Translations under genes and position numbers: made by a program
Part shown: positions 51,743 through 64,000 of the stretch, in pieces
Layout: every line of letters begins with the position of its first letter
Numbering within the stretch: the first letter of the stretch is position 1
The notes under the pieces: generated by a model
Seen by the model: only the letters and a program-made list of their open reading frames with translations
Told to the model about the DNA's origin: nothing
The model's database searches: none
Origin: Planctomycetota bacterium
Lineage (GTDB): Bacteria > Planctomycetota > Phycisphaerae > Phycisphaerales > UBA1924
Reading direction: 5' to 3'
Assembly (NCBI GenBank): GCA_018242605.1
Contig: JAFEBP010000026.1
Location: forward strand, 1-64,000
DNA: 64,000 nucleotides

Positions 51743-52989
51743 CGACGGATCTCCATGGGATCTTGGACTGCTGGAGCGGGTTCGGCTTCGTACGGACGGT
51801 CGAAGGAGAGGCGGCCGGCGAGCACCGGGATGGTGACGCGGACCAGGATGGTGAAGACCAAGAGGCCGAACGCCCAGATCCCCAGCGACACGAGGGATTC
51901 GTTCAGGGTCGGCTTGTATTCGACTATTTCGCCCAGGGGCGTGGGAACAAACGCGGGGATGATGAGGCCCATGCCCTTCTCGATCCACACACCGGCGATG
52001 AGCAGAACGCACGCGGTGTTGAGGTAACGGTTGGCGCGGGAGAGAGGCGTGTAGAGCAGGACCAACGCGATGGTGTTGATGGTGATGGCGGTCCAGATCC
52101 AGGGCACCAGGGCGTGGCGGCCCTCCAGGCCCAGGAAGAGGTAGCGGGCGGAAGCAACGTGGGCCGAGTCGGTGTAGAACTCGGTGAAGACCTCGCAGCC
52201 GAGCAGGAACATGTTGATGCTCATGGCCACGGTCACGATGTTGCGGAGCGTCAGCAGGGCGCGGGCCGGCACGTTGTACGTGGTGGTCGCGCGGATCACC
52301 TGGAGCGAGAGGATGAGGAACGCCGGCCCCGCGGCGAACGCCGAGGCGAGGAAGCGTGGCGCGATGACGGCGGAGTTCCAGAAAGGTCGCCCGCCCAGGC
52401 CGCTGTAGAGGAAGGCCGTCACGGTGTGGATGCTGACGGCCCAGGCGATGGCGACAAAGACGAAGGGGATGTAGAACAGCTTGCTCGGCTCACGACGGCG
52501 GTAGGCGCAGTAGATCAGGTAGCCGCAGATATGCAGATTCAGCACCAAATACCCGTTCAGGACAATGACGTCCCACGTGAGCATCGAGATGGGGAAGTTG
52601 AACCTCAACATGAGGTGGTGGAAGCGGTCGGGGCGGCCCAGGTCGACGGTGACAAAGAGAAGAGCCATGACGATCGCCGCGACGGCGAACAACTCACCGA
52701 AGATGACCAGGTCGTGCAGCTCGCGGTTGTGGTAGATGTAGACGGGGATCACGAGCATGACCGCGGCGGCCGCCATACCCACCAGGAACGTGAAGTTGGC
52801 GATGAACAGACCCCAGGACACCTGATCTGTCATTCCGGTCACGCCAAGCCCGAGCACGAACTGCTTGCAGTAGGCGTTGATCCCCAGGAGCACAATGACA
52901 GAGAGGAAGAACATCCAGGCGTAGTACCGCCCGTCGCCCACGAAGCTCAGGCGGAAGCAGCGGATGAGGAACGTGAGGTACTGTTTCAC
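51739..52989 (-). CDS. NrfD/PsrC-like membrane quinol-interacting subunit
   Basis: A 416-residue integral membrane protein with about eight to ten helices (YYAWMFFLSVIVLLGINAYCK, SWGLFIANFTFLVGMAAAAVML, MLTWDVIVLNGYLVLNL). This is the NrfD/PsrC/DsrP fold, which passes electrons between quinol and a periplasmic Fe-S partner and carries no cofactor itself. Overlaps with both neighbours (ATGA) show tight co-translation with the Fe-S protein and the octahaem cytochrome. The C-terminal tail is acidic and cytoplasmic or periplasmic, about 25 residues. Confidence 0.88.
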   Translation of the reverse strand: MKQYLTFLIRCFRLSFVGDGRYYAWMFFLSVIVLLGINAYCKQFVLGLGVTGMTDQVSWGLFIANFTFLVGMAAAAVMLVIPVYIYHNRELHDLVIFGELFAVAAIVMALLFVTVDLGRPDRFHHLMLRFNFPISMLTWDVIVLNGYLVLNLHICGYLIYCAYRRREPSKLFYIPFVFVAIAWAVSIHTVTAFLYSGLGGRPFWNSAVIAPRFLASAFAAGPAFLILSLQVIRATTTYNVPARALLTLRNIVTVAMSINMFLLGCEVFTEFYTDSAHVASARYLFLGLEGRHALVPWIWTAITINTIALVLLYTPLSRANRYLNTACVLLIAGVWIEKGMGLIIPAFVPTPLGEIVEYKPTLNESLVSLGIWAFGLLVFTILVRVTIPVLAGRLSFDRPYEAEPAPAVQDPMEIRR

Positions 52990-54065
52990 CGGTGGCCCTC
53001 CTGCGGGGCGGCGGGCGCCGCGGCGGGGGGTTGGGCGTGACCGAGGGACTTAGCGACACTTTCGGCCTGGGGGTCCAGCGAGCGCGGATAGCGTTCATCG
53101 AAGTAGTAGAAAAACCGCGGGAGGGTGCCGACCTCTTCCTTGAGCACGAAGACACGCTTGGTGCGGAGAATCTGTGAGACTTCGCTGTCGGGATCGAGCA
53201 CGTTGCCGAACTTGCGTGCCCCGGTGGGGCAGGCCTCGAGGCACGCGGGCAGACGACCCTGGCGCGTTCGGTGGAGGCAGAAATGGCACTTCTCCATGAC
53301 GCCCTTAGGGCGGGGGCGGTTGGAGAGGTACGACATCTCCGGATTGAGGCGGTCGGCGGGGACAGAGGGCTTGGTGAAGTTGAAGCGACGCGCCCAGTAA
53401 GGACACGCGGCTTCGCAGTAGCGACATCCGATGCACCAGTCGTAATCGATGACGACGATGCCGTCGAGTTCCTTCCACGTCGCCTCCACGGGGCAGACCT
53501 TGACGCAGGGCGGGTTAGCGCACTGGTGGCACTGCACGGGCATGTAGAAGTGGCCGGCATCGGGGACGGTCGGACGGTTGTAGTGGTGGTTGCCCTTTTC
53601 GAGGTCGAGCGTGCCGCGGGGCATCTCGACGACGCGGATGTACTGGATCTCGGGGTCGCGGCTCTGGTTGTTCTCGTTGACGCAGGCGTGGACGCAGCGA
53701 CGGCAGCCGATGCAGCGGCTGAGATTGAGGGCGTAGACGAACTCCACACCGGCCATGGGCTTGATGTCGCGGATGTCGGGGCGGATGTTGTACCGCTTCT
53801 CGACGTCTGCGGAGATGCGGGCGAGGGCGGCCTCCATCTCCTTGGGAGTCATTTCCTTGTAGTGCTTCTGGAGGAACTTGTCGATGGAGACGGCGTCGTC
53901 TTCCTTGAGGTCGCGGAGCGGGCTGAGAGCCGCGGCGAGCGCGGCGACGCCGCCGACGGCCGCGCTGCTTGTCCGCAGGAAGCTGCGGCGGGTGACCGGG
54001 GCCTCGCGCTGTGGTTCGGGCGGCGGATCATTGAACGACTGGCCCTCCCAGATGCGGATGGTCAT
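52986..54065 (-). CDS. NrfC/DsrO-like periplasmic Fe-S protein with Tat signal
   Basis: A 359-residue ferredoxin-type subunit. The Tat signal is TRRSFLRTSSAAVGGVAALA near residues 25-45, so it is exported folded. Four [4Fe-4S]-type cysteine groups are visible: CIGCRRCVHAC, CHQCANPPCVKVCP, CIGCRYCEAACP and CHFCLHRTRQGRLPACLEACP (the last is spread). This layout is that of NrfC, DsrO and PhsB. It should relay electrons from the NrfD-like subunit to the adjacent cytochromes. A C-terminal tail of about 50 residues with an Ala/Pro run is unusual. It overlaps both neighbours by four bases. Confidence 0.9.
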   Translation of the reverse strand: MTIRIWEGQSFNDPPPEPQREAPVTRRSFLRTSSAAVGGVAALAAALSPLRDLKEDDAVSIDKFLQKHYKEMTPKEMEAALARISADVEKRYNIRPDIRDIKPMAGVEFVYALNLSRCIGCRRCVHACVNENNQSRDPEIQYIRVVEMPRGTLDLEKGNHHYNRPTVPDAGHFYMPVQCHQCANPPCVKVCPVEATWKELDGIVVIDYDWCIGCRYCEAACPYWARRFNFTKPSVPADRLNPEMSYLSNRPRPKGVMEKCHFCLHRTRQGRLPACLEACPTGARKFGNVLDPDSEVSQILRTKRVFVLKEEVGTLPRFFYYFDERYPRSLDPQAESVAKSLGHAQPPAAAPAAPQEGHR

Positions 54066-54817
54066 TGGTGATCCTCCTTGGCCGGGGTGGTCGGTTCAGG
54101 GCCGGGCTGAACCGGGCCCATCAGCTCTGGCTCGGGCATTTCGGGGAGCGACCACTGGCGGAGCGGCATGTGGCGGTGTTCTTGCTCGGCCGCCGGTTCC
54201 TGATTGCCCATGCGCAGGGTGTTGGGCGCGGGCAATGGGATGATGCCCTGGTAGGCCGGGGCGTGCGGGTCGTGGCAGTCGTTGCAGCTCAGGCGGTGCT
54301 GCTTGCCGCTCGCGGCGTTCCAAGATCCCATGGTCTTGCCGTGCATGCCTTTCTGCCAATCACGGAAGACCGTGCCGTGGCACTGCGAGCAAAGGCGCGG
54401 CACTTCCGAGAAGGGCAGCAGCGTTCCGTCGTGCAGCACGAGCTTTTCGCGGTTCTTGCGGTCGTGGCAGTTGAAGCACTGGTTGTTCATGCCGTGGTTC
54501 AGCACGATCGCGGTGTGCTGCATCAGCGTTCGGCGGGAGACGGGGGGCGAATCGAACAACCGGTGGCACTCGTTGCAGGCGTGGGAGAATCCGCCCACGT
54601 TTGTGGCGGGCGGGTCGCCGATGGGCTGACGCCGTGCACCGGGAAGGAACCGATCGCGAGACACCGTGGCGACGCCCGCATGCGGAACTTCGACTTTGGG
54701 CGACCAGAAGGACAGCCACACGGCCACGACCACGAAGAGCGGGCCGATGGCGCCGATGGGCAGGCCAAGGCGTGTGGCCGGCGGAGGTCTGTGTGGTTGT
54801 GGGGCTGAGTCGATCAC
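54062..54817 (-). CDS. Membrane-anchored tetrahaem cytochrome c
   Basis: A 251-residue cytochrome starting at GTG 54817. One N-terminal helix (about residues 16-36) anchors it or is a signal. Four CxxCH motifs follow: CNECH, CFNCH, CSQCH and CNDCH. It also has several spare His (HGMNNQ, HGTVF, HGKTMGS) that may be axial ligands. The Pro/Glu-rich tail after residue 190 has no haem site. It probably carries electrons between the Fe-S subunit (overlapping, downstream) and the octahaem enzyme. A gap of 44 bases separates it from the preceding redoxin-TPR gene. Confidence 0.85.
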   Translation of the reverse strand: MIDSAPQPHRPPPATRLGLPIGAIGPLFVVVAVWLSFWSPKVEVPHAGVATVSRDRFLPGARRQPIGDPPATNVGGFSHACNECHRLFDSPPVSRRTLMQHTAIVLNHGMNNQCFNCHDRKNREKLVLHDGTLLPFSEVPRLCSQCHGTVFRDWQKGMHGKTMGSWNAASGKQHRLSCNDCHDPHAPAYQGIIPLPAPNTLRMGNQEPAAEQEHRHMPLRQWSLPEMPEPELMGPVQPGPEPTTPAKEDHQ

Positions 54818-54861
54818 ACGGTCATCCTCGGCGTGAGGCCGGGCGTCGGTCCCGGGGCGGT

Positions 54862-55860
54862 CTAGCGATCCAGCAGGAGTTCGGCGGCTTTCTTGTACTC
54901 GGCGAGCGCAGCGGCGGGCTCGCTGCGACGTTCAAGGACCATGCCCATCACGTAACGAGCCTTGGGGTCCTTGGGGTTCTTGTCGATCAGGGCCTTGGTC
55001 GTGGTGTAGGCCTTGGTGAGGTCGTCGCCGCCGCGGCGGAGTTGAACGCCCGCGATGCCCAGTGCCGCGTCGAGAGAGTCGGGGTGCGCGGTGAGCACAG
55101 AGCGGAATAGAGGTTCAGCTTCCGCCAAGCGGTCCTGACGGAGCATGAGTTCGCCCAGACCGATGGTCGCGGCCACATGGCCGGGGACGAGGGTCGTGGC
55201 TTCGGTATAGCGGGCCTCGGCCATCTCGTACAGCCCGTGCTTGGTGAGTTCACCGCCCAGATGGGCCAATCGGTCGGCGCGAAGAGTCTGGTGAGTCTCG
55301 GGGCCGGCCTTGGGATCGATCGACTGTTCGAACTGCTCGGGGGGCTCCTTGCCGATGGCGACGAGGATCGCCTCGGCGAGCATTTCTTTGGATTTCTGGA
55401 GATACGCGGGCATGGCGTACACCACCTTGCCCTTGCCGTCGATCACGACGATGGTGGGGATGACCAGGACGCGGTACGCGCCGAAGGCCTCGCGCTTGGG
55501 GTCCAGCAGCACGGTGGCCGGGAAGCGCCCTTTGGCGAGTTGGTCCTTGATCTGCGGGGCGGGAGTGTCGCCGGCGATGAGGAGAATCGCCGCGACCGAG
55601 TCCGGCGGGAATCGCGGATCGGCCATGACTTCGACGACGTCTCCGCAGGCCTGCCGAGCGCCCTCATGATTGATCTCGCCGAACACCAGGACCAGGGCAC
55701 GGGGAGCGAGTTGTTCGGTCGAGACGGGCACGCCTTCAATGTTCTTGAGCGTGATCGGCGGGGCGGGCGAGCCGCGGGGCGGAGAGGCGAACGCATCGCC
55801 GCCCAGAAATGCACAGGCCGCGAGCAGAAAGGCGGCCACACGATGGAGCAGTTTGGTCAT
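54862..55860 (-). CDS. Exported redoxin-fold protein with TPR repeats
   Basis: A 332-residue protein with a signal peptide (residues 1-26). Residues 35-165 form a thioredoxin/AhpC-like fold: VSTEQLAPRALVLVFGEINH, LLDPKREAFGAYRVLVIPTIVVIDGKGKVVY with the usual cis-Pro after Ile. The expected CxxC is absent; only one Cys (QACGD) lies near the active-site position. Residues 195-325 are TPR helices (YTEATTLVPGHVAATIGLGELMLRQDRLAEA). It overlaps the 15-haem gene by four bases. It could be a scaffold or one-Cys redox helper for cytochrome assembly. Confidence 0.78.
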   Translation of the reverse strand: MTKLLHRVAAFLLAACAFLGGDAFASPPRGSPAPPITLKNIEGVPVSTEQLAPRALVLVFGEINHEGARQACGDVVEVMADPRFPPDSVAAILLIAGDTPAPQIKDQLAKGRFPATVLLDPKREAFGAYRVLVIPTIVVIDGKGKVVYAMPAYLQKSKEMLAEAILVAIGKEPPEQFEQSIDPKAGPETHQTLRADRLAHLGGELTKHGLYEMAEARYTEATTLVPGHVAATIGLGELMLRQDRLAEAEPLFRSVLTAHPDSLDAALGIAGVQLRRGGDDLTKAYTTTKALIDKNPKDPKARYVMGMVLERRSEPAAALAEYKKAAELLLDR

Positions 55861-57251
55861 GGCTGACCTCCTAACGAACCGGAGAGGAGCGGCTTGGCCG
55901 CGTCGCGCTTGTACTCACGCTGGACATGGCACGCCGGCGCGCAGCTTCCCCCGTCGGGGGACCGCTCGTAGTTGATCTGCAGCAGCCATCCGTTGGTGCC
56001 AAAGGGAACGGCCTCGCGGATGTGGGAGGGGCGCTTGGACGCGTGCACCTCGTGGCAGGCGCGGCACGTGCGGCCCTTCTTCTGGTTGACGTGCAGCCAG
56101 TGCAGGTTCTTGTCACCATCGCGGAACTGGGTGAGCCCCTGCGCGGACTGCTTGAGCACCAGGTCGGGGATGTGGCATTTGAAGCAGAGCTTGAACGTGT
56201 CGATCTGGAACGGGGCGTAGAACTGCGGGGGGTAGTCTTCGGCGAGAAGGCGGAACTTCTGGCCCGCGTGGGGCTCGTGGCAGGCGGTGCATGCGCCTTC
56301 CCGGATTGGTCCGTGGCGGTCGGGGTTGGAGGCCAGCAGTTCGGTCATGTTGGCGATGGCAGCGCCTTGGGCCGTCTTGAGCGCCTTGTCGTGGCAGACC
56401 AGACACGTGTCGGGTTGCTTGCCGCGCAGGAGAGAGGCCTGGCGGGAGGCGTGCGACTCGTGGCAGACGGTGCACCCGCCCTGGGCGGTGATGGCGCCGT
56501 GAACGACCTTCGCGCCGGCGGTAATCTGATCAAACCGCTCCTTGTGACACTGGAGGCAAAGGCCGGGGGCCTCTTCGCGCAGTTGGAAGTGATGATCTGA
56601 TGCGTGGGGATCGTGGCAACGAATGCAGCCTTGTTCAAGGGCGGCGTGGGCGTGCATGCCCTCCTTGGCCTGCACCTCCGCGTGGCACGTGAGGCACAGG
56701 GTCTTGGGATCGTCGATCAGGAGCTTGGGACGCGGGGAGGAGTGCGGCCGGTGGCAGACGATGCAGGCCCCCACCGCCACCGGACCGTGGACGAACTGCG
56801 ACCTGCGGAAATCGGCCTTGTGGCAGCGGAGGCACAGGTCTCGTTTGGGGTCGGCGAGGAGTTGCTTGGGATGCTGAGAGCCGTGGGGATCGTGGCACTC
56901 GAGGCAGCGACCTTCCTTCACGGGCTGGTGCATCACGGTGTCGTGAGGAAGCGCGTGGCACTTGGCGCACAACTGCTCCTTGGGCACCACGAAGGCGAAC
57001 TTGTGGTCGGCCGGATTGCCCGTGATGACGTGGCAGTTGCCGCAATCCTGCTTCGCAGGGCCGTGCATGACCTTGCGTTCCAGGATGTCCTTGTGGCACT
57101 CCCCGGCGCACGTTTGAGGAGTGAAGTCCTGCGGTCTTTCACGAGGAGCGGGAATTTGAGCGGCCACCTTCCCGCCACCGGGACTGGCCAGCACCGCCAT
57201 CGCGGCGACCGCCGCGCACAGCCACCGCCCTGAGGGCCGAGGGATGCCCAT
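55857..57251 (-). CDS. Exported 15-haem cytochrome c with two CX3CH sites
   Basis: A 464-residue cytochrome, first gene of the operon. The signal peptide ends near residue 32. Thirteen standard CxxCH motifs run evenly (CGNCH, CAKCH, CLECH, CLRCH, CIVCH, CLTCH, CIRCH, CLQCH, CTVCH, CLVCH, CTACH, CFKCH, CRACH). The first and last sites are CAGECH and CAPACH, with three residues between the Cys. Many CxxCH are followed by D/E-P-H, as in long wire-like cytochromes. It probably moves electrons along the periplasm or to the surface. Whether the CX3CH sites bind haem needs proof. Confidence 0.85.
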   Translation of the reverse strand: MGIPRPSGRWLCAAVAAMAVLASPGGGKVAAQIPAPRERPQDFTPQTCAGECHKDILERKVMHGPAKQDCGNCHVITGNPADHKFAFVVPKEQLCAKCHALPHDTVMHQPVKEGRCLECHDPHGSQHPKQLLADPKRDLCLRCHKADFRRSQFVHGPVAVGACIVCHRPHSSPRPKLLIDDPKTLCLTCHAEVQAKEGMHAHAALEQGCIRCHDPHASDHHFQLREEAPGLCLQCHKERFDQITAGAKVVHGAITAQGGCTVCHESHASRQASLLRGKQPDTCLVCHDKALKTAQGAAIANMTELLASNPDRHGPIREGACTACHEPHAGQKFRLLAEDYPPQFYAPFQIDTFKLCFKCHIPDLVLKQSAQGLTQFRDGDKNLHWLHVNQKKGRTCRACHEVHASKRPSHIREAVPFGTNGWLLQINYERSPDGGSCAPACHVQREYKRDAAKPLLSGSLGGQP

Positions 57252-57783: not shown

Positions 57784-58155
57784 TCACGCTGCCTTGACCA
57801 GGCCGACTGTCTTCTCGATGCACTTGGAAAGCGTCTCGGGAGTAAAGGGCTTGATGCAGTAGTTGTTCACGCCGGCCTTGATCGCGTCGAGCACGCGGGT
57901 CTTCTCGGCCTCGGTGGTGACCATGATGACGGGGGTCTTGTTGCCCTGGCCACGGATCGTTGTGAGGAAGGTCAGCCCGTCCATGACAGGCATATTCCAA
58001 TCCAGCAGGATCAGTTCGGGTTGGTAGGACTCGACCTTGGTGAGCGCCTCGGCGCCGTTGCCGGCTTCCTCGACGTCGGTCAGACCGAGTTTGGCCAGGA
58101 TTCCCTTTTCCACGTTCCTCATGACCTTCGAATCATCCACGAGCAGAACTCGCAT
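57784..58155 (-). CDS. cheY: Single-domain CheY-like response regulator
   Basis: A 123-residue receiver domain only. The acidic pair is in LLVDDSK (residues 7-8), the phosphorylated Asp is in LLDWNMPVMDG near residue 52, the Thr of the switch is in IMVTTEA, and the Lys in CIKPFTPE. No output domain is present, as in CheY. It lies 45 bases after cheX in the same direction, and CheA is encoded next to them, so it should carry signal from CheA to a motor or other effector. Confidence 0.92.
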   Translation of the reverse strand: MRVLLVDDSKVMRNVEKGILAKLGLTDVEEAGNGAEALTKVESYQPELILLDWNMPVMDGLTFLTTIRGQGNKTPVIMVTTEAEKTRVLDAIKAGVNNYCIKPFTPETLSKCIEKTVGLVKAA

Positions 58156-58200: not shown

Positions 58201-58701
58201 TCAATGCGCGCCCGCGGCGGCCAACGCGTGAGAAGCCAACGCTGAACCCTGGCTCTGAATCGCCAGGTTGATGGCGAAGTCACCGAGCGGCGAACCGCAG
58301 GGGATGCAGATGCACGCGGCGGCGCTGGGTGTCTGCACCTGGTGCACCGACGCCACGACCACGGACGGGCAGCTGATGTTGACGTTTTTTCCCTCGAACT
58401 TGGCCTTGGCGCCGCCGGCGATCATGTTGACGAGTTCTCCGATGGCGTCGGCGAAATCGCTGCCGCCAAACTCCAGGGGCGACCCGGCGAACCGCGAGAC
58501 GATCTCGAGGGCCGACGCCTTGGGCAGGCAGAGCACGACTGAACCCACGACATCCCCCGAAAGGCCGATGATGCCCGAGACGTCGTACTTGGTCAGACGG
58601 TCATGCACGTGCGGCTTGCCGAACGTCACGGGCGCGCTGAGCATCGTGGAGAAAAGTGTGCGGGCAGATTCCAGAAACGTATTGATGAAACGTGCATCCA
58701 T
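58201..58701 (-). CDS. cheX: CheX-like CheY-P phosphatase
   Basis: A 166-residue member of the CheC/CheX/FliY group. The N-terminus (RFINTFLESARTLFSTML) and the catalytic helix with DAIGELVNMIAGGAK (Glu and Asn of the E-x-x-N motif) are typical of CheX. GLSGDVVGSVVLCLPKASA is the family's first strand pair. The protein dephosphorylates CheY. It starts 225 bases from cheA on the opposite strand, sharing the promoter region. A Cys-rich stretch (ACICIPCGS) near residue 130 is unusual. Confidence 0.85.
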   Translation of the reverse strand: MDARFINTFLESARTLFSTMLSAPVTFGKPHVHDRLTKYDVSGIIGLSGDVVGSVVLCLPKASALEIVSRFAGSPLEFGGSDFADAIGELVNMIAGGAKAKFEGKNVNISCPSVVVASVHQVQTPSAAACICIPCGSPLGDFAINLAIQSQGSALASHALAAAGAH

Positions 58702-58925: not shown

Positions 58926-61493
58926 ATGTCGCTCATTCCCAAGATCGAATCTCTCTGCAAGGCGGCCGTGCTCACCGATCCGAGCGATCTGCAGGCCCTG
59001 GCGGCGATGCACGATCAGCTCACTTCTCTCGAAGAAGAACTCTCCGCCTCCGATCTTGATTCAATCGCGGAATGCGTGGAACGCGCCTCGCGGCTCGTCG
59101 AGCAGATCGTGCTGCGTGAAACGCAGGACGAGCAAGCAGCCCTGGACTTGGTGCGGCGGGGCATCGAGTACGCGCAGAACGCGGTCCTGGCGGAGCAGCG
59201 TGGGCAGACGCTCTCGGAGATTGGGCCCTCTCCCTTCAGCCATGACGGCGCGGCGCCCGCGAACGAGATCAATACCGACCTTCTCGCATCGTGGCTGAAT
59301 GAGTGCGGCAAAACGCTGGACGGGCTTGTCGCGACCGCGCGCGGCGCGGCGAGCGGCGACGATACCCAAAGCGCGGCGGCGGACGCACGCCGGCACCTTC
59401 ACACCCTCAAGGGTGAGTGCGGCGTGATTCCGCTCCATACGGCCCAGCACCTGTGCGGCGCGGCGGAGGCCGCCCTGGACCGGTGCGCCGATACCGGCAC
59501 ACCCTTCCCCACCGAGCTTGTCCTGGGGGTCGCCGACTGGATGATCCGGTACACCAACGCCCTGCGGAACGATCCCGCCGCTGCCGCGCCCGAACACACC
59601 CACCTGGCCGCGAACCTGGGCGAGGTGGCACCGCGACCAACGTCGGGAGAAATCAAGTCCCTGATTGCGACGACCGCGACGACGTTGCCCGCGACGCAAG
59701 ACGATCCACAGACAGACGAGGGCGACCCCACTCCGGTCACGTTCCCCGCGGACGCGGACACGGGCACGATGCTGGCTGAGTTCCTGACCGAGTCGCGCGA
59801 GCACCTGGCCAACGCCGAGCAGGCTCTGCTCCAACTGGAGAAGCAGCCGGAAGACCTGGAGCTGATCAACACGGTGTTCCGCGCGTTCCACACCATCAAA
59901 GGCGTGGCCGGTTTCATGAACCTCAAGCCGATCGTCTCGCTGGCGCACGAAGGTGAGTGCCTGCTCGACGCGGCCCGGAGCGGGAACCTCAAGCTCGACA
60001 GCGGCAACCTGGACCTGATCCTGAAGGCATGCGATCTGTTGAGCCAGTTGCTGGCCGCGTTGGAGGGCGGCACCGCCCCCACCACCGGCCGATTCAACAA
60101 CCTGGTCCACAGACTGGGGCGCGCGGTCAAAGGCGAGAGTGCCGCGTCGCAGCCCTCCACGCCAGGCGTCTCTGCTTCGACAACGAGTTCCTCTCGGGCG
60201 GCCTCACAACCCAACGAGACACCCGCGGCGACGAACACAAACTCCGGTGCGCCCAGCATTTCAACGGACACCACCGCAAAGAACACAGCGACCGCCAACA
60301 CGAACAGCAAGTCGACCGACCAAACGGTCAAGGTCAGCACAGGCCGCATGGACACGCTCGTGGACCTGGTGGGTGAGTTGGTGATCGCACAGCAGATGGT
60401 GGTGCAGGACCCGGCGATCCGCACCAAGACGGACCAGCGGTTGCAGCGAAATCTCTCGATGGTGGGCAAGATCATCCGCGATCTGCAGGCGGTTTCGATG
60501 TCGCTGCGGATGGTGCCGATCAAGGCCACCTTCCAGAAGATGGCGCGGCTCGTGCGCGATGTTTCCGCCAAGGCGGGCAAGCAGATCCTGCTCCACACCG
60601 AGGGTGAGGATGTCGAGCTTGACCGCAATGTCGTTGAGGTCATCGCGGATCCGCTGGTGCACATGGTCCGCAACGCGAGCGACCACGGCGTCGAGACTCC
60701 CGAGGCACGCAGAGCCGCGGGCAAGCCAGAGTCCGGCAACATCTGGCTGCGCGCGTACCACTCCGGCGGCTCGATCGTGGTGGAGATCGAGGACGACGGC
60801 AAAGGACTTTCAAGGGAGAAGATCGTCGCGAAGGCCATCGAGAAGGGCATTTACACGCCGGACCGCCCCGTCGCGGACATCCCCGATGCTGAGGTTTTCA
60901 ATCTCATCTTCCTGCCGGGGTTCTCGACGGCGGACAAGGTGACGGACATCTCCGGCCGCGGCGTCGGGATGGATGTGGTGCGCCGGAACATCGAGGCACT
61001 ACGCGGCAAGATCGACATCCGATCGACGGCGGGCAAAGGCACCGTCTTCTCGATGCGGCTGCCGCTGACGATGGCGATCATCGACGGCATGGTGGTCCGC
61101 GTGGGGAGCCAGCGGTATGTCATCCCGACATTGTCGATCGAACGCAGCTTCCGCCCGCAGCCCAAGGACCTGCACTCGGTGGTGGGCAAGGGCGAGATGG
61201 CGATGGTCCGGGGCGGGCTACTGCCGATCTACCGCCTGCACCAGGTGCTGGGCCACGACACGAACGGACAGACATCCTCCGGCGATCTGCTGATCGTCGT
61301 GGAGTCGCAGGACACCCGGGCGTGCCTGGCGGCGGATGAGATCATCGGTCAGCAGCAGGTAGTCATCAAAACACTTGGCCAGGCAACTCAAGCCATCCGG
61401 GGGGTCTCGGGCGGCGCCATCCTGGGTGACGGGCGTGTCGCCCTGATCCTCGACATCGGCGGGATTCTGAAGGAAGCCACCGCCGCGGCTTGA
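58926..61493 (+). CDS. cheA: CheA chemotaxis histidine kinase with two Hpt domains
   Basis: An 855-residue kinase; the ATG at 58926 begins MSLIPKIESL, preferred over the upstream low-quality frame. Two phosphotransfer domains carry HTLKGE (His159) and HTIKGV (His322). A Ser/Thr/Ala linker of about 90 residues follows. The dimerisation helix starts at MDTLVDLVGELVIAQQMV. ATP-binding boxes are PLVHMVRNASDHGVE, EDDGKGLS and GRGVGMDVV, then GKGTVFSMRLPLTMA. The C-terminal CheW-like domain (residues about 715-855) binds CheW and receptors. A P2 (CheY-docking) domain is not obvious. CheW is encoded 31 bases later and a receptor-like gene after that. Confidence 0.93.
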   Translation: MSLIPKIESLCKAAVLTDPSDLQALAAMHDQLTSLEEELSASDLDSIAECVERASRLVEQIVLRETQDEQAALDLVRRGIEYAQNAVLAEQRGQTLSEIGPSPFSHDGAAPANEINTDLLASWLNECGKTLDGLVATARGAASGDDTQSAAADARRHLHTLKGECGVIPLHTAQHLCGAAEAALDRCADTGTPFPTELVLGVADWMIRYTNALRNDPAAAAPEHTHLAANLGEVAPRPTSGEIKSLIATTATTLPATQDDPQTDEGDPTPVTFPADADTGTMLAEFLTESREHLANAEQALLQLEKQPEDLELINTVFRAFHTIKGVAGFMNLKPIVSLAHEGECLLDAARSGNLKLDSGNLDLILKACDLLSQLLAALEGGTAPTTGRFNNLVHRLGRAVKGESAASQPSTPGVSASTTSSSRAASQPNETPAATNTNSGAPSISTDTTAKNTATANTNSKSTDQTVKVSTGRMDTLVDLVGELVIAQQMVVQDPAIRTKTDQRLQRNLSMVGKIIRDLQAVSMSLRMVPIKATFQKMARLVRDVSAKAGKQILLHTEGEDVELDRNVVEVIADPLVHMVRNASDHGVETPEARRAAGKPESGNIWLRAYHSGGSIVVEIEDDGKGLSREKIVAKAIEKGIYTPDRPVADIPDAEVFNLIFLPGFSTADKVTDISGRGVGMDVVRRNIEALRGKIDIRSTAGKGTVFSMRLPLTMAIIDGMVVRVGSQRYVIPTLSIERSFRPQPKDLHSVVGKGEMAMVRGGLLPIYRLHQVLGHDTNGQTSSGDLLIVVESQDTRACLAADEIIGQQQVVIKTLGQATQAIRGVSGGAILGDGRVALILDIGGILKEATAAA

Positions 61494-61524
61494 ACGGTTG
61501 AATATCACGGAACAGGAGCACTTC

Positions 61525-62112
61525 ATGAGCACGACGATCCAGGCAAGCAACAACTCCCGCACAACATCCCGCACCGACGACGGGAACCACGACAAGTTCC
61601 TCACCTTCTGCCTGGGAAGGGAGGAGTACGGACTTCCGATCCTGGCCGTCCGGGAGATCATCGGGCTGATCGACGTGACCCCGCTCCCGCAGACGCCTTC
61701 GTACGTCAAGGGTGTGATCAATCTTCGCGGCAAGATCATCCCGGTCATCGAGCTGCGCGCGAAGTTCGGCCTGCCCACCGTCGCGTACACCGCCGAGACC
61801 TGCATCCTCGTTGTTGAAGTGGAGAGCGAAGAGGGCGCCGGGGCGTTCCAGTTGGGGATCATCGTCGACTCCGTGCGCGAGGTGCTGGACATCAGCCGCT
61901 CGAACATCGAGCCGCCCCCGAACTTCGGCACCTCGATCCCGCTCTCTGCGATCCAGGGCATGGGCAAGGTCAAGGACAAGGTCGTCATCCTGCTGGACAT
62001 CAACAGCGTTGGCGCGGCGCAGGGCCTTGAGAAACTGACCACCGACGCGGAGTCGGTGCACGCCACTCCCGGCGCGGCGGGCTCGATCGGTCTCGCGCGG
62101 GCCGCGGCGTAA
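61525..62112 (+). CDS. cheW: CheW chemotaxis adaptor
   Basis: A 195-residue adaptor. The ATG at 61525 has GGAG eight bases before it. The CheW fold runs from FLTFCLGREEYGLPILAVRE through PLPQTPSYVKGVINLRGKII to GIIVDSVREVLDIS and KVVILLDINSV. It links CheA with chemoreceptors at the membrane. N- and C-terminal tails of about 25 and 30 residues are low complexity. A strong terminator follows, so cheA-cheW form their own unit. Confidence 0.92.
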   Translation: MSTTIQASNNSRTTSRTDDGNHDKFLTFCLGREEYGLPILAVREIIGLIDVTPLPQTPSYVKGVINLRGKIIPVIELRAKFGLPTVAYTAETCILVVEVESEEGAGAFQLGIIVDSVREVLDISRSNIEPPPNFGTSIPLSAIQGMGKVKDKVVILLDINSVGAAQGLEKLTTDAESVHATPGAAGSIGLARAAA

Positions 62113-62318: not shown

Positions 62319-64000
62319 ATGACCTTGAAGACTCGAGCGGCGTTCACCTGCAGTCTGCTGATGTCATTGGCGGGCACGACGCTCGCAGGGCCCGCGGAAG
62401 ACGGGCTGACCTCGCTTCGGGAGGGCAACGCACGCTTCGTGACGGGCAAGACTCAGAACCCGCACACCGGCATGGATCGTGTGGCGGAGACGGGAGCGGG
62501 CCAAAAGCCGTTCGTGACGATCCTCAGTTGCTCTGACTCGCGACTCCCGCTGGAACGGATTTTCGACCAGGGCGTGGGTGACATCTTCGTCGTTCGGGTG
62601 GCGGGCAACGTCGCCGACACGGACGAAATCGGCTCTGCCGAGTACGCGGCGGGCCATCTCAACACGCCGCTGCTGGTCGTCATGGGCCACAGCAAATGCG
62701 GGGCGGTAACGGCCGTCGCCACCGGCGCACAGGTCCATGGGAGCATCCCCGGCCTGATCGACAACATCATCCCGGCCGTGGAATCGGCTAAGAAGAAGCA
62801 CCCGGGTGTCACGGGCAAGGACCTGGTGCCGTTCGCCATCGAGGAGAACGTGTACCAGAGCATCGCTGACACGCTGACCAAGAGCGCGGAGATCCGCGAG
62901 CTGGTGGGCCAGGGCAAGTTGTTGGTCGTGGGCGCGGTGTACGACGTTGACACCGGCAAGGTCGCTTGGCTTGGCCAGCACCCCAACCAGAGCGGACTGA
63001 TGGCCGCGCCGCACGAGACCGCTTCCGCCGAAGGCGGCGAGCACGGCGGCACGCAGCAGCCCGAGACCAAGGAGACCCAAACGGCGGCGAGCGGCACGCC
63101 GGGCGAGAGTTCGGCGCAAACCTCGACGCTCGCCGCGACGGGCAAGTTCACCGAGCCGGAGTTCAAGACCGTGGCGCGCGCCGCGTTCGGCGCGAAAGCG
63201 GGCAAGGCCGAGACGTTCGAGCCCCCAGCGCAGCTGACCCCACCCACCAACACGCTGTTCCTGGTGTTCGCGTTCGGCGCGGGTGGAGCACTTCTTCTCA
63301 CAATCGGCGCGAGCCTCGCGCTGGCCAAGGTGACGAACAAGGACGGATCTTCCGGGCGGGCCCTGACGCTGGGCGCCAAGCTCGCGTGCGGCTTCGGCCT
63401 CCTCTCCACGGGCGTGATGACCGTCGCGGCGGTGGCGAACCGGGCCAACACGCTGGTGGCCACCGGCGTGTGCGAGATCGCCGCTCACTCTTCAAACGCG
63501 GCGGTCGTGGAAGACCTCAAGGGCGATCTGGCAACCATGCGGCTGGCGGTCAAGAACTTCCTGCTGAACAACAGCGACCAGTCGCTCGCGAGCTTCTCCA
63601 ACGCCGCGGCGACATTTGAATCCCGGCTCTCGGCGGCCCGGACCGCGTTGGCGGGCACCGAGCACGCCAAGGGGCTCGACGAGATTGCCGACGGCTTCAA
63701 GACATACAACGAGACCTTCGAGAAGGTGGTCACGCGGGTGGACGAACGCAACGCAACGATCGACTCGCAGATGGGCCCGTCGGCCGCCCGGGCGTCGACG
63801 CTGCTCACCGAGATCTCCCGAACTGCGCACGCCGACGGCGACACAGTCAAGGCGCTGGTCACAGCCGAGGCCGGCGAGCACCTGCAGAGCGCACGCCTCA
63901 ACTTCTTCAAGTACCTCCGCACGCACGACGAATCGCAGGCGGAGCAGGCGCAGAAGGACGCCGAAGAGATGACGAAACTCGTCGGCGAGCTCAAATCCCA
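62319..64000 (+). CDS. Secreted beta-carbonic anhydrase fused to a chemoreceptor-like membrane sensor (3' end outside window)
   Basis: The frame runs open to the window end (560 residues visible). The ATG at 62319 has GGAG upstream. Residues 1-23 are a signal peptide. Residues 27-222 are a beta-carbonic anhydrase with zinc residues Cys71, His124 and Cys127, the Asp73-Arg75 pair (CSDSR) and HSKCGAV; the core looks active. A linker of about 85 Ala/Thr/Glu-rich residues leads to a membrane helix (312-336), a short polar loop, a second helix (353-374, LGAKLACGFGLLSTGV), then a long extracytoplasmic helical bundle (380-560) like methyl-accepting chemotaxis receptor sensors. A third helix, HAMP and signalling domain would be expected beyond the window. 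CheA and CheW are encoded just upstream. Confidence 0.82.
   Translation, partial: MTLKTRAAFTCSLLMSLAGTTLAGPAEDGLTSLREGNARFVTGKTQNPHTGMDRVAETGAGQKPFVTILSCSDSRLPLERIFDQGVGDIFVVRVAGNVADTDEIGSAEYAAGHLNTPLLVVMGHSKCGAVTAVATGAQVHGSIPGLIDNIIPAVESAKKKHPGVTGKDLVPFAIEENVYQSIADTLTKSAEIRELVGQGKLLVVGAVYDVDTGKVAWLGQHPNQSGLMAAPHETASAEGGEHGGTQQPETKETQTAASGTPGESSAQTSTLAATGKFTEPEFKTVARAAFGAKAGKAETFEPPAQLTPPTNTLFLVFAFGAGGALLLTIGASLALAKVTNKDGSSGRALTLGAKLACGFGLLSTGVMTVAAVANRANTLVATGVCEIAAHSSNAAVVEDLKGDLATMRLAVKNFLLNNSDQSLASFSNAAATFESRLSAARTALAGTEHAKGLDEIADGFKTYNETFEKVVTRVDERNATIDSQMGPSAARASTLLTEISRTAHADGDTVKALVTAEAGEHLQSARLNFFKYLRTHDESQAEQAQKDAEEMTKLVGELKS

Follow-up and report, generated by a model that had tools for sequence, protein, structure and literature searches.

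Chemoreceptors such as McpS, McpQ and McpK from Pseudomonas have in common an HBM sensor fold and the layout TM-HBM-TM-HAMP-MCP, and the characterised HBM receptors mostly bind organic acids (PMC5126104). A bicarbonate-responsive chemoreceptor is known from H. pylori, in which TlpA recognises arginine and bicarbonate; however, its sensor is of the dCache type and the respective paper describes no enzyme domain (PMC8406319). Among the β-carbonic anhydrases (CAs), Rv3588c (CanB) of M. tuberculosis is an active enzyme that is switched by pH (PMC6834203, PMC7287614). The vertebrate receptor phosphatase RPTP-gamma is a membrane receptor whose outer part has a CA fold, and sensing of CO2/HCO3- has been proposed for it (PMC7541084, PMC11215419). 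This CA-like domain lacks the catalytic histidines, however, and signalling proceeds by tyrosine phosphatase activity. It is of the α-type and therefore not homologous to the β-CA of the fusion described here. In fungi, CO2 sensing involves a bicarbonate-activated cyclase. The Cryptococcus protein Can2 is a β-CA taking part in CO2 sensing according to the title of PDB entry 2w3q, but it is a separate protein and not part of a chemotaxis receptor.

Here, we analysed a stretch of 64,000 nucleotides from a Planctomycetota bacterium (hereafter the window, which denotes this whole stretch), at the end of which a β-CA and a chemoreceptor are encoded in one frame. Compared to McpS-type receptors, the protein has an additional signal peptide, CA, linker and membrane helix at its N-terminus. 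Its CA resembles Rv3588c in fold and active-site residues, whereas Rv3588c is a stand-alone enzyme of 207 residues without a receptor part. In the titles and abstracts of the open-licence literature that we searched, no published CA-chemoreceptor fusion was found.

The fusion protein and its chemotaxis neighbourhood

The open frame begins at position 62319 on the plus strand and is uninterrupted up to the window edge at 64000. The contig (C18) extends to base 66467, i.e. 2,467 bases beyond the window, and the frame closes at C18:65384 (stop included), giving one protein of 1,021 amino acids. An early stop beyond the window was thereby rejected, and the single continuous frame claimed by the first-pass annotation was borne out as far as its natural stop. 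The protein comprises, in this order, a signal peptide, a β-CA, a linker, two membrane helices, an HBM domain, a third membrane helix, HAMP and MCPsignal. The signal peptide (residues 1-23, 62319..62387, plus strand) was recognised by eye from its basic start, hydrophobic core and small residues before the cut. The CA domain (residues 27-222, 62397..62984, plus strand) matches Pro_CA (PF00484) at residues 67-215 of the whole protein (E 2e-36), and the zinc ligands Cys71, His124 and Cys127 as well as the Asp73-Arg75 pair are complete, each at the position given for it previously.

We predicted the structure of residues 27-690 with 12 homologous fusions as input (mean pLDDT 82), and the folds of both the CA and a McpS-like sensor were recovered. 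The CA part matches Rv3588c with a Z score of 25.7 (190 residues, 1.9 Å, 38% identity), which is likewise the nearest solved CA by sequence (E 5e-39). In three close pairs of fusions, the dN/dS of the CA was 0.18, 0.10 and 0.16 and lower than that of the HBM domain and the linker; the CA domain is under purifying selection. The pair L048-L050 was left out of this comparison, since a chance earlier DSR in L048 misplaced the CA region, and no weight was given to the MCP values obtained for L043-L054, a distant pair.

The CA is followed by a flexible linker (residues 223-311, 62985..63251, plus strand; defined by pLDDT, alignments and dN/dS), whose pLDDT is below 50 at model residues 205-244 and whose first part evolves fast according to dN/dS. 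In the alignments, it ends in a conserved F..P......FG...G.A motif, which is common to CA-less receptors as well. The two membrane helices expected upstream of the sensor bundle were found by hydropathy at about residues 312-334 (63252..63320, plus strand; helical in the model) and 353-374 (63375..63440, plus strand). They enclose a short basic loop, presumably cytoplasmic, of the sequence LAKVTNKDGSSGRALTLG (residues 335-352, 63321..63374, plus strand). The sensor bundle itself (about residues 375-640, 63441..64000, plus strand, cut at the window end) gave a weak match to HBM (PF16591) at residues 394-596 (E 2e-6), with 27.7 bits for the whole protein and 30.1 bits for the window part at a cut-off of 29.8. 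The model superimposes on the McpS ligand-binding domain (2yfa) with a Z score of 19.1 (230 residues, 2.0 Å) and reproduces the six-helix bimodular HBM fold, which identifies the predicted bundle as an HBM domain of the McpS type.

Past the window, in the part of C18 up to 65384, the third membrane helix (about residues 641-662 by hydropathy), HAMP (661-713, E 2.6e-12) and MCPsignal (PF00015; 776-932, E 2.7e-51) complete the protein, including the MCP hairpin tip EIAFQTNLLALNAAVEAARAGE at residue 818. All three elements anticipated beyond position 64000, namely the helix, HAMP and the tip, are therefore present, and the Pfam search on the whole protein matched Pro_CA, HAMP and MCPsignal. The N-terminal signal sequence suggests that the CA and the HBM sensor face outward and the HAMP-MCP part inward.

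The fusion gene lies next to chemotaxis genes, as had been claimed, and Pfam confirms their assignment. cheA (58926..61493, plus strand, start codon by eye) encodes two Hpt stretches and dimerisation, ATPase and CheW-like domains, and cheW (61498..62112, plus strand, start codon uncertain; Pfam CheW 1e-37) lies between it and the fusion. Genes for a CheX phosphatase (58201..58701; Pfam CheX 1e-22) and a CheY-like response regulator (57784..58155; Pfam Response_reg 2e-29) are encoded on the minus strand, divergent from cheA. Elsewhere in the window (52986-57251, minus strand), genes resemble an iron-sulphur respiratory subunit and proteins rich in CxxCH haem motifs.

Searches of the genome that contains the window (assembly 86.6% complete) revealed one copy each of CheA (that of the window), CheR and FliG, together with two MCP signalling domains above the cut-off. 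The receptors found in this genome are very few, and the fusion is among them. Since single copies of CheA, CheR and FliG were found, the fusion receptor very likely feeds into this one CheA pathway. A RuBisCO search in the same genome gave no match. SBP_bac_10, a family that occurs mainly in planctomycetes, has 11 matches in this genome and none in the 14 control genomes, which agrees with a probable assignment to the Planctomycetota. A second receptor gene is located in tandem downstream of the fusion (L004:8583-9466) and is cut at the contig end. At the end of contig C29 of the same assembly, the tail of an MCP gene precedes cheR, a receiver-domain gene and cheB. In genome G011 of the same order, the same three kinds of gene come after a CA-less receptor, which occupies the place directly behind cheA-cheW that the fusion has in the window. 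By comparison with this locus, we infer that C18 and C29 adjoin in one cluster, with the break inside the second MCP; an end overlap between the two contigs was not found. The fusion (L043), the G011 receptor (L044), a receptor in G398 (L071) and the MCP tail of C29 (ending L153) carry an acidic stretch and an ASF C-terminus (e.g. DDSLASF, EESFASF), which is absent from most other receptors of the family. This ending might serve in the docking of CheR or CheB.

Distribution and ancestry of the fusions

A linker-HBM profile search over 400 genomes of the order defined a receptor family, 12 members of which carry an N-terminal CA (window, G045, G174, G211, G112, G081, G092, G186, G353, G254, G231 and G086). 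Other members, for example in G011 and G049, lack the CA but have the conserved linker motif, and their start resembles a signal sequence. Since the same receptor thus also occurs without CA, the CA has to be regarded as an accessory module; it is not the only candidate for the sensing part of the receptor, nor does the receptor need it in order to be retained. Fusions also occur outside the order. In G519, which belongs to another class, HAMP and MCP are preceded by a signal peptide, a CA, two membrane helices and a short sensor without HBM match in Pfam. The gene lies directly before cheA-cheW, and cheR and the last part of an MCP-like frame belong to the same row. G857 contains a relative with 53% identity. 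The search for similar fusions thus yielded a total of 14, i.e. that of the window, the CA-HBM-MCP fusions of 11 further genomes of the order and the separate CA-MCP lineage in two genomes of another class.

All five catalytic residues are kept in 13 of these fusions. The exception is G086 (L063), in which the first zinc cysteine is replaced by serine and the zinc histidine by asparagine, while the aspartate, the arginine and the second cysteine are retained; its fused domain is possibly CA-like without catalysis. Around most of the remaining fused genes, che genes were absent from the several kb inspected. The neighbours scanned encode, for example, an aminotransferase, a release factor and a cysteinyl-tRNA synthetase, and no conserved CO2-related gene was found among them.

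In the receptor tree, which was computed rapidly and in which some branches are long, the starred branches require five or more gains or losses of the CA. In the CA tree, one supported group unites nine fused CAs (families f1 and f2). The two f6 fusions cluster with free CAs from other families, and those of G086 and G519 are placed elsewhere. AU tests rejected a single clade of all fused CAs (p 1e-5; p 5e-4 without G519), and thereby a single origin of the fusion, although free CAs might in part have been released from fusions. As the fused CAs do not form one clade, the CA was probably joined to chemoreceptors more than once, in a history in which gain and loss are not separated. For the fusions, the CA tree also conflicts with the receptor tree; for example, the CA of the window groups with that of G353, and their receptor halves fall into different clades. 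This disagreement suggests that the CA acts as a module that was captured repeatedly and perhaps exchanged between receptors.

Putative mode of action and its alternatives

The enzyme-receptor architecture proposed in the first-pass annotation is supported by the uninterrupted frame, the signalling half beyond the window and the homologous and separate fusions elsewhere. We consider the chances to be about even that the protein works as an enzyme-equipped chemoreceptor, in which an active, exported β-CA is tethered to an HBM-HAMP-MCP receptor signalling via CheA and CheW, and in which catalysis makes CO2 readable. The β-CA would be exported to the periplasm and held at the receptor by the flexible linker and a membrane helix. 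There, on the surface of the array of receptors, it would convert CO2 to HCO3- and H+ and vice versa. The resulting change in bicarbonate or protons, perhaps along with organic acids, would be read by the HBM bundle, so that the signal would pass from CO2 via the CA to HCO3- and H+, the HBM receptor and finally CheA. Hydration of CO2 takes tens of seconds without a catalyst, whereas a swimming cell compares concentrations over about a second. Uncatalysed hydration is therefore too slow for such a cell, and a receptor-borne CA could let the sensor track CO2, ambient or from its own respiration, as bicarbonate or proton changes. A CA merely accelerates the equilibrium and its products diffuse off quickly; a local signal would therefore require an imbalance between CO2 and bicarbonate.

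The most likely reading of the fusion receptor is a putative sensing of CO2, bicarbonate or pH. The complete architecture with its intact active site, the fold matches of CA and sensor, the low dN/dS of the CA, the one CheA, CheR and FliG found, the recurrent, separate fusions and the free CA between a cheW-type and an MCP gene in G678 count in its favour, and the CA-less relatives, the G086 fusion with its lost zinc ligands, the mostly che-less loci and the organic-acid ligands of HBM receptors count against it.

The CA domain could itself be the sensor, if a pH- or bicarbonate-dependent switch between an open and a closed form, and not turnover, were relayed to the receptor. Such a switch is known from the closest solved CA, Rv3588c, which changes between active and inactive states with pH (PMC6834203, PMC7287614), the RPTP-gamma ectodomain is a putative bicarbonate sensor despite its lack of catalytic histidines (PMC7541084), and G086 keeps its CA domain without the complete set of zinc ligands. 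However, the active site is intact in 13 of 14 fusions, and a long, fast-evolving linker of low confidence and two membrane helices separate the CA from the sensor bundle, which disfavours rigid coupling; we regard this explanation as unlikely.

Also rather doubtful, in our opinion, is an anchoring function, in which the receptor array is only a scaffold that places the CA at one spot of the membrane, e.g. for respiratory CO2, without any input into signalling. The receptor half that can stand alone in the CA-less relatives, the exchangeability of the CA indicated by the conflicting trees and its stronger constraint compared to the sensor in three pairs would agree with such a function. A link with signalling is suggested, however, by the separate joinings specifically to chemoreceptors and by the CA gene inside the cheW-MCP row of G678.

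A further explanation, which we consider improbable, is a common McpS-like receptor for organic acids, the CA of which only steadies the local pH or bicarbonate. The HBM fold does match McpS, and organic acids are the ligands of characterised HBM receptors (PMC5126104), but other HBM receptors work without a CA and the G519 lineage has a CA yet no HBM match in Pfam. Finally, a chimera or frameshift that fused two unrelated genes, for which nothing speaks beyond the frame reaching the window edge, was rejected as almost inconceivable, because 11 other genomes share the identical architecture and both halves are under purifying selection.

If the enzyme-equipped chemoreceptor exists as proposed, bacteria would steer by CO2, bicarbonate or pH using a receptor-mounted enzyme, which would be a prokaryotic parallel to the vertebrate receptors with CA-like ectodomains. 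Somewhat more tentatively, and with odds that we put a little short of even, the fusions may represent a class of enzyme-coupled chemoreceptors, in which CA catalysis makes CO2 readable as fast as swimming demands and thus provides bacterial CO2 taxis, and in which the module was captured repeatedly by different receptors. Since one receptor occurs in nature with CA, without CA and with a CA devoid of zinc ligands, the family lends itself to testing the role of catalysis in chemoreception.

Other carbonic anhydrase genes in the searched genomes

In a phylum-wide sample of 392 genomes searched for CA, the other matches examined were mostly free enzymes. The genome of the window itself encodes a second, free CA (L005:6415-7524, on contig C22), which has a long N-terminal extension and all motif residues. 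In one scan of named genomes, a Nitrospinales MAG contained a free CA; four matches in viral contigs comprised the CA only, and no plasmid record covered 80% of the query in one place. The free CA of G678 (L156:6594-10304) lies between a cheW-type gene and an MCP gene in the same orientation, and the open frames are a few bases apart. A general rule that free CAs adjoin chemoreceptor genes was rejected, as this was the case at only one of 20 loci examined, namely that of G678.

Two frames contain tandem CAs (L119:8293-10200 on G519:C204 and L155:237-2357 on G867:C233), behind which a long stretch rich in His and, at the C-terminus, a hydrophobic segment follow; the latter may be a membrane anchor. 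In four further frames of 700-900 residues (L024, L026, L081 and L146), the CA is located C-terminally behind a long N-terminal part.
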